In this document: piece after piece, positions 1,908-8,698 of the stretch | Layout of the letters: every line of letters begins with the position of its first letter | How positions within the stretch are numbered: position 1 is the first letter of the stretch | DNA from: Bacteroidaceae bacterium | Lineage (GTDB): Bacteria > Bacteroidota > Bacteroidia > Bacteroidales > Bacteroidaceae | Direction of reading: 5' to 3' | Assembly (NCBI GenBank): GCA_017621515.1 | Contig: JAGASY010000109.1 | Coordinates: 1 to 64,000, forward strand | Length of the DNA stretch: 64,000 bases | Made by a program: the position numbers and the translations under genes | Notes under the pieces: model-generated | Database searches by the model: none | Seen by the model: only the letters and a program-made list of their open reading frames with translations | What the model was told of the DNA's origin: nothing

Positions 1908-1940
1908 TGCAGTCATTTGTCAGTGGGTATATCTATATTA
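1908..1940 (+). promoter_or_regulatory. Putative ECF-type promoter of the sigma-barrel gene
   Basis: TGCAGTC (1908-1914), a 15-base gap, then TATCTATATTA (1930-1940). The same pair with the same gap is at 3682-3714 before the methyltransferase gene. The spacing between boxes fits a -35/-10 pair read by an ECF sigma factor. The start codon is 27 bases beyond the second box. TTAGATA follows at 1943-1949 and makes an inverted repeat with ATATCTA (1929-1935). Confidence 0.6.
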
Positions 1941-1967: not shown

Positions 1968-3662
1968 ATGGATTCAAATATACGAACATTAGTAGAAAAA
2001 GCAAAACAAGGAGACAACAGTGCTTTCAGCACATTATATCAGATGTATTATCCCAAGATGAAAGGGATATGTATAAACATCCTCAAAGAGGACAAGGCTG
2101 TCGTTGACGACCTTGTCCAAGATGCTTTTATACTTGCACTTGTATCTTTGAAAGATTTGAAGAATCCCAATAGATTCAGCCAATGGCTTACAAGCATAAC
2201 TTCCAATCTCGCTTTAAAATACAGGGAAAAAGGTAACAGAATCAAATTTGTTCCTTTGTCTGACATGGACGAAAACGCTGAGAACGAATGTGCTGAATCC
2301 CAAACTTCCGAATTGTCTATCCAATATGATGACATTATGGAAGAAATAGACAATTTACCAGAAGGTTACAAGAAGATATTCAACCTTTCCGTATTGGATG
2401 GATTGTCTCATCAAGAAGTAGCAAAAGTACTTGATATAGCTCCCCATAGTTCTTCATCACAATTGGCGAGAGCAAAGTCTATGCTAAGGAACAAATTGAG
2501 CCTAAGAGCAATACTTGTTATATTCTTGGTTCTGATAGTCATTCCTATATATAAGCATTTCGTAACTAAGAAACAACTTGTCTCAGACAATGATACTCAT
2601 ATAACCAGAAAGCGAAAGGAGAAAACAAAGAACGATAGAAATCTTGCGTCAAAGAATGGCACGGATTCTACAAATTGTACACAAGAGGTTGCTCCGTCAA
2701 CTAATTATCACAGTACTCTAACTAAAAAGAATATTGTGGCAACTCGTATTGATTCTACTGGAATTAATCATAGTGCCATAATAGCAATGGTAGATTCTTT
2801 GCAAGATAAGAAACCGTTAGTTGCAGATAACAACCAAGATAGTGTTGGCATAAAAGACTCTGTCCCCATCCCTAATATCTATAAGGAAACATGGGTTGCA
2901 GAAAACACCAAGATTCATAAGAAAAACAAGTGGCAATTGCTTGCAGTAGGCTCCTTGGGCACAACTCTTGTACAGAATGTTTACAAGATAATAAAAAGTA
3001 ACGACATTAGTAGCGAACAGCCTTCAGGTCCAGGTAAACTCACGACATGGGAAGATTATGCCCAAGAGTTGCATCGTATAACTCAATCCGACCCAACAGC
3101 GGAAAATGTTGCTATGGCAGACATTGCAGACCACAACAGTGGAGAGATTATAGAGACAGAACATCATGACAAACCTATAACATTGGGTGTTGCAATAAAT
3201 AAGAACATAGGCAAGCGTTGGAGTTTAGAAACAGGACTTCAATATTCTTATTTGAAATCATGCTTTGTTCTTGGTACAGGTAGCTATCATGTAGATAAAG
3301 AACAGAAGCTGCACTATATAGGTGTTCCGCTCAAGCTGTCTTACCAATTTATGAAGTTCAAGAGATTGTCAACCTATGGTTCTTTAGGTGCAAGCATTCA
3401 GATTCCTATATACGGAAAGACTAATGCTGACTATATCGTAGGGGACAAGTCTGCATATACAACCGATTGGAAACTTACGCTTCCTGTACAATGGACGGTA
3501 AATACAAATATTGGAATACAATATCAGTTTGCACCAAATCTGAACCTGTTTGTTGAACCAACCATGAATTGGTACATTCCAAACGGAAGCAGTATTAAAA
3601 ACACTTGGACAGAACGTCCATTTACTTTCACTGTACCATTCGGAATCAGGTTCTCTTGGTAA
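1968..3662 (+). CDS. ECF sigma factor fused to a transmembrane helix and outer-membrane beta-barrel domain
   Basis: One uninterrupted 564-codon frame with four parts. Residues 5-90 are sigma region 2 (DDLVQDAFILAL is the core-binding helix). Residues 122-177 are region 4 with its helix-turn-helix (LDGLSHQEVAKVLDI). Residues 181-199 are a single hydrophobic helix (AILVIFLVLIVIPIY). After a polar, Lys/Ser/Thr-rich linker (200-320), residues about 320-564 alternate like beta strands and end in the aromatic VPFGIRFSW typical of outer-membrane barrels. Bacteroidales commonly encode a sigma factor next to a separate membrane protein with a PorT-like barrel; here both are one polypeptide. The predicted topology is sigma domains in the cytoplasm, helix in the inner membrane, linker across the periplasm and barrel in the outer membrane. 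Release by proteolysis would be needed for free sigma activity; that is inference. Confidence 0.85.
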   Translation: MDSNIRTLVEKAKQGDNSAFSTLYQMYYPKMKGICINILKEDKAVVDDLVQDAFILALVSLKDLKNPNRFSQWLTSITSNLALKYREKGNRIKFVPLSDMDENAENECAESQTSELSIQYDDIMEEIDNLPEGYKKIFNLSVLDGLSHQEVAKVLDIAPHSSSSQLARAKSMLRNKLSLRAILVIFLVLIVIPIYKHFVTKKQLVSDNDTHITRKRKEKTKNDRNLASKNGTDSTNCTQEVAPSTNYHSTLTKKNIVATRIDSTGINHSAIIAMVDSLQDKKPLVADNNQDSVGIKDSVPIPNIYKETWVAENTKIHKKNKWQLLAVGSLGTTLVQNVYKIIKSNDISSEQPSGPGKLTTWEDYAQELHRITQSDPTAENVAMADIADHNSGEIIETEHHDKPITLGVAINKNIGKRWSLETGLQYSYLKSCFVLGTGSYHVDKEQKLHYIGVPLKLSYQFMKFKRLSTYGSLGASIQIPIYGKTNADYIVGDKSAYTTDWKLTLPVQWTVNTNIGIQYQFAPNLNLFVEPTMNWYIPNGSSIKNTWTERPFTFTVPFGIRFSW

Positions 3663-3681
3663 AAAAAGTCTCTTTTTGCGT

Positions 3682-3714
3682 GCAGTCTTTATGGCTGACC
3701 TGTATCTATATTAG
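3682..3714 (+). promoter_or_regulatory. Putative ECF-type promoter of the methyltransferase gene
   Basis: TGCAGTC (3682-3688), 15 bases, TATCTATATTA (3704-3714), identical in both boxes and in spacing to 1908-1940. The start codon is at 3740. The gap sequences between the boxes differ, so the conserved parts stand out as the functional boxes. Confidence 0.6.
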
Positions 3715-3739: not shown

Positions 3740-4534
3740 ATGCAGAAAAGACATACAGATAGAAAAATGTATTTCCATGATTTGGAAATTACATCTAAAG
3801 AGTTTTACATCAGCTACTTGTCAACATTCAAAGAGTTGACATCGAAAAGTAGAATATTGGAGGTAGGTTGTGGCGAAGGAGGCAATTTAGTCCCTTTTGC
3901 CCAACTTGGCTGTAAAGTGACAGGCATAGATATTGCAGAATGTAGAATAGAAGATGCAAAAGCATACTTTTCAGAAATCAGCAGCAATGCAACATTTGTG
4001 TGCTGTGATTTTATGAAATACAATGCACCAGTCAATGAAGAGGAAAAATTTGATGTAATACTTTTACATGATGTGATAGAACACGTTCCAACTAAAGAAC
4101 CATTTCTTGCACACCTTAAAAGTTTTCTGAAATCAACCGGTGTGCTGTTTGTGGGTTTTCCTGCATGGCAAATGCCTTTCGGTGGGCATCAACAGATTTG
4201 TCGAAGCAAACTCTGTTCACATTTACCATTCATTCACTTGTTGCCTAACTTTTTGTATAAGTTGTTGTTGGAAACATGCAATGAAGAAAATGGGACTATA
4301 AGCGAATTGATGAGCATAAAAGAATGTCAAACAAGCATAGAATTGTTTGAAAGGCTTATACGCAAATGTGGCTTTTCCGTGACAGACCAAAGACTTTGGT
4401 TTATCAACCCTCATTACAAGCAGAAGTTCCACCTTACCCCACGGCTCTTGCCACATTTTGTATGGAGAGTGAAATACATTAGAAATTTCTTCACTACTTC
4501 ATGTTGGTATGTATTAGGCTTAGACAATAAATAG
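3740..4534 (+). CDS. Class I SAM-dependent methyltransferase
   Basis: 264 residues with a Rossmann-type methyltransferase fold. Motif I is ILEVGCGEGGN (39-49), the acidic end of strand 2 is GIDIAE (62-67), and LLHDVIEHV (108-116) corresponds to motif IV/post-I. FPAWQMPFGGHQQ (140-152) is a pattern seen in small-molecule or glycan methyltransferases of the Methyltransf_11/23 groups. The substrate cannot be read from sequence. It lies 77 bases behind the sigma-barrel gene and shares its promoter-like boxes, so it is the best candidate target of that sigma factor. No signal peptide, so it should act in the cytoplasm. Confidence 0.85.
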   Translation: MQKRHTDRKMYFHDLEITSKEFYISYLSTFKELTSKSRILEVGCGEGGNLVPFAQLGCKVTGIDIAECRIEDAKAYFSEISSNATFVCCDFMKYNAPVNEEEKFDVILLHDVIEHVPTKEPFLAHLKSFLKSTGVLFVGFPAWQMPFGGHQQICRSKLCSHLPFIHLLPNFLYKLLLETCNEENGTISELMSIKECQTSIELFERLIRKCGFSVTDQRLWFINPHYKQKFHLTPRLLPHFVWRVKYIRNFFTTSCWYVLGLDNK

Positions 4535-4629: not shown

Positions 4630-4671
4630 AAAAAATCCATGAGGGGATGTTTAGCACCCTCATGGATTTTT
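4630..4671. terminator. Bidirectional terminator at the end of the mob gene
   Basis: AAAAATCCATGAGGG (4631-4645) and CCCTCATGGATTTTT (4657-4671) form a perfect 15-bp stem with A and T tracts on both sides. It overlaps the stop codon of the relaxase gene (minus strand) and also closes the plus-strand cargo region. Confidence 0.85.
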
Positions 4672-6025
4672 ATAATTTCAGTCCTTTACGTTGAGAAAAC
4701 AAATGTAACTTTATGTTGTTCCATTGTTCTTTGAACCAATCAACAATAGGTTGTCTATTGATATGCAAAAACAATTGGTTCGGCTTAGTGGAATCAGAGA
4801 ACACTTTGATTTCCGCATCCTCCACTTTGAACTTTCGCCTGTGTTCCTCTGAATAAAGCGAACCGCTAAAGTTCAATGCCTTTCCTGTAAGAAGCACTCC
4901 GATTTGCTCAGCAGTGAAGCCAATCTTCTGGCACAAAATTTCCATTTGTAAGCGTGCCTCCAACATCGGGAACCAACGCTTGGCTTTGCGGATGATTCCA
5001 TTGAGCGTAGTCACCTCAGAAGAGTGCTTACTTGTCAACTTCTCAACCTCTGATTGGTGCTTCTGTTGCATCTCGCCAAGCTGCCGTTCATGGCTGTCCT
5101 CTATTCGCTGCATCTTCTCATGTAGTTTGTCAATGTATTGCTCTCGGTCGGTGACAAGCTCGCATAGCTTCTTGTTGGCTTGCTCCACCTCCTTTAGTTT
5201 TCCACTGCCCAAAAGAGAACCAATCTTTGACACAAAGGCGGTCTTAGCTTCCGTCTTTGCAGCCTGTAACTTCTCCGTGTTGACTTCGCTTTTGGTCTTT
5301 TGAAGAAGTTGCTTCGCCTCGTTGATGTCCGATTGCAACAACTTCATACAGTTCTGAAGCCTGTCCGTCTCTCGCTTGATATTGCGATAATATTGTGCCG
5401 TGGTGGTATGCCTTGCGTCAGAGCCACGGACACCTCGCTTCAAGCCATACTTGCCCATGGCTTCCGCATAACTGTCGTGATAGCCAACCATCTTGTCACG
5501 GTTAAGCACATCATCGGCACACAACCTCACGGCATTGGCTTTCTTGCGGTATGTCCGCTTGCCCTCCTCCGTAGGCTTTACCCTTGCCTTTCTTCTCTCG
5601 CCTGTCACTATCGGAACGATAGAGGCATGGAGGTGCGGCGTGTGCTCGTCCATGTGGAGAACCACCGAAACGACATTCTCCTTGCCGAATGTGTCCTGCA
5701 ACCACTTCAAGCTGTCGTTGCACCAATCGTCAAGCTGACCATTGGCTGCGATGTTCATCATGTCCTCGTGCGTTCCAGACAGCACGGTTCTAATCACCCT
5801 CACCTGGTCATTGGTTATCTTGCGCTTGATGCCTGCCGTCTTGATGCGGTGGGCGATGGCTTCGTCACGATCATACACACCGCTCGGCATCTTGACAAGC
5901 TCACGGTTGAGGTGAGTTCTCGTAGGGTCAGCGTTGTCGGGTATCACCTTGCGCTCTATGTGGTCTGACTCCCTTGCGTCAGAGCTACCCTTTGCCTTCT
6001 TGAAATCCAAACTGAAATGTCCCAT
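4670..6025 (-). CDS. MobV-family relaxase (mobilization protein)
   Basis: The relaxase nicks DNA at oriT and leads the single strand into the recipient. The catalytic signature HMDEHTPHLH (residues 124-133 from the chosen start) is the metal-binding H-x-D-E-x-x-P-H-x-H of the MobV/Pre family. The C-terminal half (about 230-370) is a long charged coiled coil, also usual. I chose the start at 6025 (MGHFSLDFKK), giving 451 residues, because MobV proteins begin close to such a sequence; an in-frame upstream ATG at 6097 would add 24 residues that run into the palindromic region. The oriT-like palindromes lie directly upstream. Confidence 0.9.
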   Translation of the reverse strand: MGHFSLDFKKAKGSSDARESDHIERKVIPDNADPTRTHLNRELVKMPSGVYDRDEAIAHRIKTAGIKRKITNDQVRVIRTVLSGTHEDMMNIAANGQLDDWCNDSLKWLQDTFGKENVVSVVLHMDEHTPHLHASIVPIVTGERRKARVKPTEEGKRTYRKKANAVRLCADDVLNRDKMVGYHDSYAEAMGKYGLKRGVRGSDARHTTTAQYYRNIKRETDRLQNCMKLLQSDINEAKQLLQKTKSEVNTEKLQAAKTEAKTAFVSKIGSLLGSGKLKEVEQANKKLCELVTDREQYIDKLHEKMQRIEDSHERQLGEMQQKHQSEVEKLTSKHSSEVTTLNGIIRKAKRWFPMLEARLQMEILCQKIGFTAEQIGVLLTGKALNFSGSLYSEEHRRKFKVEDAEIKVFSDSTKPNQLFLHINRQPIVDWFKEQWNNIKLHLFSQRKGLKL

Positions 6026-6096
6026 AATAAACTTGTTTTTGAGTTGTACAAATCCGCTTGCCGCATTGCGCCCTGCGCATGGCTCACGGGGTTTCA

Positions 6097-6164
6097 AAAG
6101 GGGATACCCCTTTGCTCAATGGGCGTTTTTAGTGGTGGCGTGCCACTGCGTCAAGAAAACGCCC
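6097..6164. other. Candidate oriT: nested palindromes upstream of mob
   Basis: AAAGGGG (6097-6103) faces CCCCTTT (6107-6113) across three bases. Then GGGCGTTTT (6121-6129) faces AAAACGCCC (6156-6164), with AGTGG (6131-6135) and CCACT (6143-6147) nested inside. Relaxase genes of this family normally lie next to their nick region, so this cluster is the best oriT candidate. The nick site itself cannot be assigned. Confidence 0.5.
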
Positions 6165-6214
6165 TATTAAGTTATGGCTTTTCCGTTCAGAATAGCCATT
6201 GGAGCAGGAACCGC

Positions 6215-7165
6215 CTATATGCCCAAGGCTGCGCCTCTCTTTCGAGGTGGAACGGTTTGCTTAACAGGCTGTACTTGGTGTACAGACTGTTTGGATTTAA
6301 CTCCGCACAGATAGTCGTTCAAGTCTTTGTACTCACTGTACAAGTGGGATGCGTCCCTCACATGGTAGCCGAGGGCAGTCTCGATGGCAAGCGTTGCCTT
6401 CTGCCCAGCCTCGTCGTTGTCGAGCAGACAACTGATGCGCTCGTAGCCGTAGAGTGCGTCAACAGCCTTGTCAACGTTGCTTGTTGAGTTGAGTATCACG
6501 TAGTCCTGCGCTTCCAATGACGGACAAGACGGAAACTTCTCCATGCGTAACGAGAGAAAGGAAAGATAGTCCATCATGCCCTCGAACACATAGCAAGCGT
6601 ATCTTGGCTCGCCTTGCTGTCGGATATGTGTGATGTCCTTGGGGGACATGCAACCCTTGAAGAATCGGTTACGAACCTCGTAACCGCCCGACTTGTTCTT
6701 GAAGCCGATGGCGAAGTAGTTCTTGCCATTATGCGAGAAGTGGAGTTCCACACATTCCTTTCGGGCGATGCACAGGTCAATATTCCGCTCGCTCAGATAG
6801 CGTAGGAGTGCAGGGTGGTTGAGTTCCCTAACCTCCAATCTCTCAAAACTCGGCTCGGAAGCTTGCTGAGGGAAAGAAAAGTCGGTCGGGCGTACATGGG
6901 GGGCTTGCTTCTCCATCTTGTCCAAGAGATATGGCAAGCTGTCTGATGCGTAGAGGTATGACGCAAGGGTGATGATGTTGCCGCCCTTGCCCATTCCGAA
7001 ATCGAACCAACTGTTCATCATGGTGTTCACCTTGAAAGATGCCTCGCTCTCATTTCTCAGCGGTGACTTGTACCAAAGGTTTGCGCCCTGCTGCTTGACA
7101 GGGCGGTGTCCCAAACTTTGCAGGTAGTCTGCAATCTTGATTTGCTTTGCTTCTTGAATGTTCAT
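6215..7165 (-). CDS. Toprim-domain DNA primase of the mobile element
   Basis: 316 residues. The N-terminus (1-70) has the fold pattern of a CHC2 zinc-finger domain (YKSPLRNESEASFKV, then WFDFGMGKGGNIITL), but the zinc-binding Cys and His residues are missing, so the finger is degenerate. The Toprim domain follows, with the catalytic Glu in VFEGMMDYLSF (Glu195) and the acidic pair in LLDNDEAG (Asp249, Asp251). Such primases start strand synthesis on the transferred single strand or on the excised circle. It sits between relaxase and helicase and is separated from the helicase gene by the iteron-like array. Confidence 0.85.
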   Translation of the reverse strand: MNIQEAKQIKIADYLQSLGHRPVKQQGANLWYKSPLRNESEASFKVNTMMNSWFDFGMGKGGNIITLASYLYASDSLPYLLDKMEKQAPHVRPTDFSFPQQASEPSFERLEVRELNHPALLRYLSERNIDLCIARKECVELHFSHNGKNYFAIGFKNKSGGYEVRNRFFKGCMSPKDITHIRQQGEPRYACYVFEGMMDYLSFLSLRMEKFPSCPSLEAQDYVILNSTSNVDKAVDALYGYERISCLLDNDEAGQKATLAIETALGYHVRDASHLYSEYKDLNDYLCGVKSKQSVHQVQPVKQTVPPRKRGAALGI

Positions 7166-7206
7166 GTTTTACTGTGGATTAAGTGGTGTATGTATTTCTG
7201 ATGAAT

Positions 7207-7438
7207 TGTTGAGAATAGCATGTATTGGTATGATAGTCAAATACTTATCTTCTCAACAAACTCTCAACAAATGGTTCTTTTCAACAAAATCACTGGGCAA
7301 AAGAGAAAGACAGGCATTAGCTGTCATGTTTTCTCTTTTCAACAGTCTCTTTCTTTTGTTGAGAGATTTGTTGAGAAAATGTTGAGCCTTAAATACTTGA
7401 TATTCAACACTTCTTTCATCATATTCAACAATTCAACA
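7207..7438. repeat. Iteron-like array of TCAACA / TGTTGA
   Basis: Eleven copies in 232 bases: TCAACA at 7253, 7264, 7281, 7339, 7404, 7425 and 7433, and its complement TGTTGA at 7207, 7357, 7369 and 7380. Many extend to CTCAACAAA or TTCAACAAA. The array occupies the only gap between primase and helicase genes, where an origin of replication for the excised element would be expected. Confidence 0.6.
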
Positions 7439-7441
7439 AAA

Positions 7442-8698
7442 TTATATGCTATTTAGCTTGTCCATCGTTATAGTGTAGAACCTGCCCACACGTTTTGTTG
7501 GCGAGTAGTGACCGCTGCTATTGTAGTTGTACTCGTATGAGGTGTAGGTGAGGGCGTTCTCTGAAGGTTGCAGCTTCCAACAGTCCTGCACTATCTTTCG
7601 CACAAGGTGCTTCTCCGCTTTCACGTGGTTGCATTGCAACAAGGCGATTGTGTCATTGAGGCAGAATTGCAAACTGTCGGTTTGAGTGTTCTCCATGACC
7701 TCAAGGAACAGCTCCGACATTTCCACCTCAAGTCTGTTACGGTTGCAGCGGATGATTCTCCGCAAGGCATCAGTCGCAATCTGCTCGGGGGCGAACCACA
7801 TTCGGCTCTTCTGCTGTGTTGACAGCGTTCTGCCTTGCAGATGGAACAGGAAAGCAGGTATCTCAGCAATCAGTTTACGCAAGAAGTCGGTATCGTCAGA
7901 TTGCAGCGATGAAATCTTTCTCACCCAATATCGGGTCTCTCCCTCGTCAATGATGACAGGCAGGGATTCGTTGTTGGAGCACAGCACAAACTTGGCAAAG
8001 AAAGAAATCTCGTTTCTGTCCTTGCCCTTGGCTTCCACCTTGTAGGAGAGTGTGGTGCTGAGATTCTTTAAACGCTCAGAATCCTCCCTGCGACTGAGTA
8101 GCACCTCATCCACGACTATGAGCAGCTTGCCAGCCCAATCTGCATTGAACTGACTGCGGAAGTCCTCGTTGGTATTGAACGTAACGTTGTCTTGGAACAA
8201 CGCTTTCAGAAAGTTCAAGAACGTGGTCTTGCCTGTGTTCCTCTCCTCAGACACAAGCAAAAGAATTGGAAGTTTCTGCACAGGTCTGAGATAGAGCAGT
8301 TGCAGATAGTCCATGCCAAGCTCGTATTGCTCACCGAAGATGTGAAAAAGCAATTTCTTGATGTTCGGAAAATCCCCTTTCATTGGCTTGTGGCTTATCG
8401 GCTCGTAGAGATTGAGAAAACCGTCTATTACAGTTCGGTGGTTCACATGTTCGGGAACGGTACAGAATCCGTCATACTTGTGGACATACTTGATGAACTC
8501 CTTGCCGTAGTCCTGACGCAAGGTTTCCATGTTCCAAGGGATGCGCTTTCTTACCTTCCCTCCATTGATAGTAGGTTGGTCAACCACCTTGTATAAGGTT
8601 GTGCCAACACGGATGAACACCTCGTTTGGTGGAGGTGGTGCCTGTGGCTGCATGGTAGCAACTTCGACTGGCAGTTTGTTGTCATTTGTCATGTTCAT
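7442..8698 (-). CDS. SF3-like helicase / VapE-type ATPase
   Basis: 418 residues. The ATP-binding loop is in SEERNTGKTTF (150-160), Walker B is KLLIVVDEVLL (191-201) and a motif C-like sensor is FVLCSNNESLP (237-247). This is the primase-helicase (DUF5906 / VapE) type found on phage satellites and mobilizable elements, where it unwinds the element origin. The first 25 residues, rich in Pro and Gln, are probably a flexible tail; ATG codons at 8698 and 8692 are both possible starts. It has its own promoter and operator-like sequence upstream. Confidence 0.8.
   Translation of the reverse strand: MNMTNDNKLPVEVATMQPQAPPPPNEVFIRVGTTLYKVVDQPTINGGKVRKRIPWNMETLRQDYGKEFIKYVHKYDGFCTVPEHVNHRTVIDGFLNLYEPISHKPMKGDFPNIKKLLFHIFGEQYELGMDYLQLLYLRPVQKLPILLLVSEERNTGKTTFLNFLKALFQDNVTFNTNEDFRSQFNADWAGKLLIVVDEVLLSRREDSERLKNLSTTLSYKVEAKGKDRNEISFFAKFVLCSNNESLPVIIDEGETRYWVRKISSLQSDDTDFLRKLIAEIPAFLFHLQGRTLSTQQKSRMWFAPEQIATDALRRIIRCNRNRLEVEMSELFLEVMENTQTDSLQFCLNDTIALLQCNHVKAEKHLVRKIVQDCWKLQPSENALTYTSYEYNYNSSGHYSPTKRVGRFYTITMDKLNSI

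Follow-up and report, generated by a model that had tools for sequence, protein, structure and literature searches.

A Bacteroidaceae sigma factor fused to a membrane helix and an outer-membrane-type barrel without the anti-sigma-type tail of Dma proteins

How would a sigma factor be held in check when it is part of the same polypeptide as a membrane helix and an outer-membrane barrel, and which promoters would it serve? The question is raised by a gene at positions 1968..3662 of the forward strand in the 64,000-nucleotide stretch of Bacteroidaceae DNA analysed here (referred to as the window). Its frame encodes 564 amino acids with no internal stop and, based on reading of the open frame, Pfam searches and homologues, we describe it as a Dma3-type sigma/membrane helix/barrel fusion. 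Sigma-70 region 2 (PF04542, E 5e-9) spans residues 23-91 (2034..2240), and region 4 (PF08281, Sigma70_r4_2, E 1.2e-11) spans residues 122-173 (2331..2486) and bears HSSSSQL, a signature of the clade in the alignment. The sigma part also matches the NCBIfam sigma70-ECF model TIGR02937 above its cut-off (E 1.9e-23); the presence of region 2 and region 4_2 matches with region 3 unmatched identifies it as an ECF sigma factor. About ten residues past HSSSSQL follows a transmembrane helix at residues ~177-199 (2496..2564), the only hydrophobic segment of the chain by hydropathy (best 19-mer 177-195, mean Kyte-Doolittle 2.66). It has positive charges on both flanks, and charge gives no clear-cut orientation. 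The presumably periplasmic linker (residues ~200-390; 2565..3137) is polar in composition and fast-evolving, with 50-60% identity to close orthologues vs 72-79% for the sigma part and 78-88% for the barrel, and contains a short conserved W/G-rich stretch just ahead of the barrel.

The C-terminal part (residues ~391-564; 3138..3659) is assigned as an outer-membrane beta-barrel domain. OMP_b-brl_2 (PF13568) matches residues 404-525 above the curated Pfam cut-off (E 9.4e-7), the sequence is 27-33% identical to the barrels of split Dma partners, and the chain ends in GIRFSW, the terminal W being present in 46/50 fusions. All three Pfam domains (sigma region 2, sigma region 4_2 and OMP_b-brl_2) were matched in each of 22 sampled fusions. 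A full-chain AlphaFold model generated with eight close orthologues as input reached a pLDDT of 32, and a model of the barrel alone with few sequences as input was all beta at a pLDDT of 47. Using this low-confidence barrel model, Foldseek gave no match at E<=0.001, while its top list consisted almost entirely of outer-membrane barrels (Ail, OmpT, OmpA, CarO and OmpW); a barrel profile found no relative among PDB sequences. The barrel assignment is thus supported by the family profile match and by homology to the split Dma barrels. An earlier note, made from the sequence alone, had described an unbroken frame with sigma regions 2 and 4, one hydrophobic helix, a polar linker and a barrel-like domain with an aromatic end, all in one chain, and this anatomy was recovered in every part.

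The same note had named a frameshift or an assembly error joining two genes as the finding that would undo this reading. We find instead a second full-length fusion copy (42% identity) in the same genome and ~50 distinct full-length fusion homologues that form one clade across the Bacteroidaceae, and because of these two observations we conclude that the fusion is not the product of a frameshift or an assembly join. Named isolates of Segatella copri, Leyella, Hallella and Prevotella carry full-length homologues with intact frames at 65-73% identity. In an even draw of 301 genomes within the family Bacteroidaceae, 62 had a match at E<=1e-40, mostly full-length and in one open frame; an order-wide draw gave a match in only 5/393 genomes, three of them from the family. 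In the tree of sigma domains, 47/47 fusions fall into one clade on a long stem (SH-aLRT 100), the five rows labeled as split inside this clade being broken or cut-off fusions. The simplest reading of this tree is a single origin of the fusion clade. Searches of viral contigs, plasmids and phages for the full-length fusion found none. Broken frames occur in a few relatives, in the linker or close to the helix (loci L016, L046, L068 and L090, from four genomes), as would be expected if two genes had been artificially merged by a frameshift, an assembly join or decay into a pseudogene. Against the ~50 intact frames in one clade, the paralogue in the same genome and a junction without remnant of a tail or a stop, however, we give such a merger a negligible probability. 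One of the broken copies, from Bacteroides heparinolyticus (L046, 6001-7691, frame broken in the linker), is nested within the Prevotella clade, a placement suggestive of intergeneric transfer.

The earlier note knew of no described system of this layout. That statement has to be withdrawn, because the N-terminal domain of B. thetaiotaomicron Dma3 is reported to be its cognate sigma factor (PMC13088901). The dma3 locus comprises BT_2778-2779, with no ECF21 sigma gene next to it (PMC13088901). BT_2778 carries the annotation of a sigma-70 factor and goes up ~2.3-fold when iron is scarce (PMC10434189). Compared by published description, Dma3 and the window protein are both Dma-family chains that start with their own sigma domain, but Dma3 is from Bacteroides thetaiotaomicron whereas the window gene lies in a Prevotella-like genome. 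The window protein is likely orthologous to Dma3, which is known here by its description. In the available portions of the report, a promoter, a target gene or slot, loss of the tail and a single clade are absent, and the words "motif" and "methyltransferase" do not occur (PMC13088901). We therefore regard the layout as already reported once, and the tail loss, the single clade, the promoter element and the target slot as apparently new here, with uncertain priority.

The pairs of a Bacteroidales ECF sigma gene and a separate helix-plus-barrel gene to which the earlier note had pointed correspond to the published Das/Dma systems (PMC13088901). In Das1/Dma1 and Das2/Dma2, a sigma factor is paired with a dual membrane-spanning anti-sigma factor that shares the helix-linker-barrel plan of the fusion. 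The resemblance extends to a homologous sigma factor and barrel and a related promoter element, and the fusion sigma is homologous to split sigmas adjoining Dma-like genes. Das/Dma systems, however, consist of two genes, and Dma bears a cytoplasmic tail (~45-55 residues), while the fusion is one gene and has no tail. In the split Dma partners, this N-terminal tail of 45-55 residues precedes the membrane helix and follows the pattern W..L...L.dYsEP.P..GWe.Le. A tail profile built from half of the split Dmas matched 20/20 of the other, held-out half and 0/50 fusions. In the fusions, the helix begins 8-17 residues (median 12) after the region 4 motif HSSSSQL; because the anti-sigma-type tail is absent, sigma region 4 runs directly into the membrane helix. 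Handling of the sigma factor has been ascribed to the N-terminal part of Dma (PMC13088901), and in the fusions the sigma factor itself occupies the place of this part in the sequence. By sequence, the fusion has the helix, the long linker and the Dma-type C-terminal barrel of a Dma protein but lacks the cytoplasmic N-terminal anti-sigma domain, and because of this absence we file it as a sigma-fused protein of the Dma3 type rather than as an anti-sigma factor. The relation to sigma/helix-barrel pairs suggested earlier therefore holds, whereas a simple addition of sigma to anti-sigma does not, the tail being absent from 50/50 fusions.

We also noted that many Bacteroides das/dma genes share a reading frame and are separated by one TAG stop plus two codons (L114, L115, L116, L117, L119, L123 and L125), such that loss of one stop would join them; the true fusion clade nonetheless has no tail. 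Long "open frames" elsewhere in Bacteroides, considered as additional fusions, were rejected, as they are split Das/Dma pairs, several of them in frame with one stop between.

Other sigma factors with membrane-spanning parts provide partial precedents. IutY of Pseudomonas putida (ECF243) is a sigma/anti-sigma fusion that is cut by Prc and RseP and is active when truncated; its sigma domain, membrane helix and periplasmic regulatory part all belong to a single polypeptide (PMC5411451, PMC8999054), as in the window protein. IutY, however, has a periplasmic anti-sigma domain, a separate receptor, IutA, and no outer-membrane barrel of its own, while the window protein has a barrel and no anti-sigma domain; because IutY keeps this domain, the precedent is partial. 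Actinobacterial ECF48, ECF52 and ECF53 resemble the fusion in joining sigma to membrane-spanning C-terminal extensions (PMC8999054), but differ in having a zinc-finger anti-sigma domain and no outer-membrane barrel.

We next consider which promoters the fused sigma might read. A promoter-like element, P1, lies upstream of the fusion gene (TGCAGTCATT-N12-TATCTATA, 1908..1937, forward strand) and recurs upstream of homologues, and a second, P2 (TGCAGTCTTT-N12-TATCTATA, 3681..3710, forward strand), precedes the adjacent methyltransferase gene; the consensus of the shared element is TGCAGTC(A/T)TT-N12/13-TATCTATA. The set of matching sites is very small: the pattern TGCAGTCNTT-N9..15-TMTCTATA has exactly four matches in the 3.39-Mb genome, P1 and P2 among them, and these precede both fusions and the methyltransferases of both fusions. 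The reversed control pattern gave 0 matches in the same genome, and shuffled windows gave 0 matches (0.00 expected in the window). Relaxing the pattern adds a fifth site in the same genome, on contig C93, at the start of a radical-SAM/GFO-IDH pair, and such a radical-SAM/oxidoreductase pair sits directly behind fusions in other lineages.

Across homologues, a GCAGT core was found near the start of 34/38 fusion genes and just behind 34/38 (0.06 expected per 150 nt), but this 38-gene list was collected on the core, so that the core columns are fixed by selection and only the flanks (CAT before, TTTT after) and the -10-like block are free of it. In the 301 family genomes, 46 of the 82 matches to a looser pattern adjoin a fusion, every one of them on the strand of the fusion, and a match was present in 34/62 genomes with a fusion vs 22/239 without (Fisher p 7e-14, to be taken as a guide only because related genomes are not independent). 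With the exact pattern, 31/62 fusion genomes had a match near the fusion; the other half do not, owing to variation in the -10 part from clade to clade. We call the element promoter-like based on its position and conservation, and we infer that the fused sigma reads sites of the P1/P2 type.

Split Das genes carry a related element, TGCAGTATTT...ATTTATA, with TGCAGTA, and in two genomes (G635 and G679; loci L157 and L158) the same methyltransferase, with TGCAGTCTTT-N12-TATCTATA, comes after a split Das/Dma pair rather than after a fusion. The B. thetaiotaomicron dma3 locus rises both in the dma1 and in the dma2 mutant (PMC13088901). These three observations would also fit inhibition in trans, in which the tails of split Dmas bind the fused sigma domain and the fusions are subordinate to the Das/Dma network. 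Yet the fusion sigmas constitute a clade of their own, set off by a long branch, the -35 base differs (TGCAGTC in the fusions vs TGCAGTA in split Das genes), and freed Das sigmas that recognise the dma3 promoter would explain the published cross-talk equally well, such that the related Das element could account for the rise of the locus in both mutants. We consider inhibition in trans quite improbable.

The gene behind P2 encodes a class I SAM-dependent methyltransferase of 264 amino acids (3740..4534, forward strand; Pfam Methyltransf_12/25/11) and is the presumed target of the fused sigma. In the close orthologues L040-L047, a methyltransferase 84-87% identical to it lies directly 3' of the fusion. 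Class I methyltransferases are found behind the fusion in the window, L002, L040-L047 and several Bacteroides; in other genomes, a Bacteroides fusion and a methyltransferase make up a two-gene locus. Elsewhere, the slot holds a radical-SAM/SPASM protein with a GFO/IDH/MocA oxidoreductase, a GT2 glycosyltransferase, an acyltransferase 3 protein, a weakly FUT8-like protein or a large secreted protein. Large secreted proteins of ~940-980 amino acids, which start like LINEVEVANIDAFIDPSYNYGGWIELYNP, carry the fusion-type element in three loci (L138, L152 and L153), two of them unlinked to a fusion. As 76/301 genomes have members of the methyltransferase family that are not next to a fusion, its pairing with the fusion is frequent but not obligatory. 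Judging from their gene families, several of which act on surface polymers elsewhere, the slot enzymes may modify a component of the envelope.

Past the methyltransferase, the window carries genes named by eye as mobilization-protein, primase-like and helicase/replication-like genes (4670-8698, reverse strand). Segatella copri L040 has the same block at 91% DNA identity vs 78% for the fusion/methyltransferase region, which suggests different histories of the neighbouring blocks. An Abi_2-like (HEPN-type) gene directly 5' of the fusion (1167-1859) is common to the window and L040. Further upstream (349-795) lies a gene for an acidic protein of 148 amino acids with no Pfam match, the N-terminal part of which (FAAYLDGNLSESEMDKV...) resembles, by eye only, the start of small anti-sigma-like proteins.

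Starting from computational observations, namely the anatomy of the chain, the missing tail, the two matching promoter elements and the very small set of matching sites, we favor with moderate confidence a working model in which the fusion is a Dma3-type one-chain envelope sensor with a tether-held sigma that is freed by proteolysis, regulates its own gene and has one dedicated envelope-modifying output. The N-terminal ECF sigma domain would be kept in the cytoplasm and would be connected to the barrel in the outer membrane through a single helix across the inner membrane and a long, flexible linker in the periplasm. Because there is no anti-sigma-type tail, the tether itself probably holds the sigma off. 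A change at the outer membrane, or a barrel that fails to assemble, would make the linker accessible to proteases, and the sigma would be freed by regulated intramembrane proteolysis, a step proposed by analogy with IutY. The free sigma would then read TGCAGTC(A/T)TT-N12/13-TATCTATA before its own gene and before the neighbouring methyltransferase gene, resulting in positive feedback and one dedicated output that modifies an envelope component.

The sigma might alternatively be active while tethered, the uncut protein recruiting RNA polymerase at the membrane and changes in barrel or linker altering its shape or access. Membrane-bound one-component regulators of the CadC/ToxR type are the model for such activity, and the absent anti-sigma tail, the intact sigma domain and the few target sites, which would leave few promoters to handle at the membrane, are all compatible with it. 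However, the mere 8-17 residues that separate the recognition-helix motif from the membrane helix leave little room for a holoenzyme, and IutY, the characterised membrane-fused ECF factor, needs cleavage. We regard activity in the tethered state as unlikely and retain release by proteolysis as our working model.

More broadly, we tentatively propose, at slightly less than even confidence, that in a single Bacteroidaceae clade the anti-sigma tail of a Dma sensor was replaced by the sigma itself and that tethering alone inhibits it. Each copy would then be a self-contained switch from outer membrane to promoter, with a private promoter, only two to three target promoters and, mostly, one exchangeable envelope-modifying enzyme next door. 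The promoter sequence, the short list of likely targets and a sigma without an anti-sigma domain make the function of the fused clade directly testable, and they pose a mechanistic puzzle, namely what holds the sigma off without an anti-sigma domain. If tethering alone controls the sigma, the fusion would be among the simplest known signal routes across two membranes to a promoter and would offer a compact building block to those who engineer sensors in gut bacteria.
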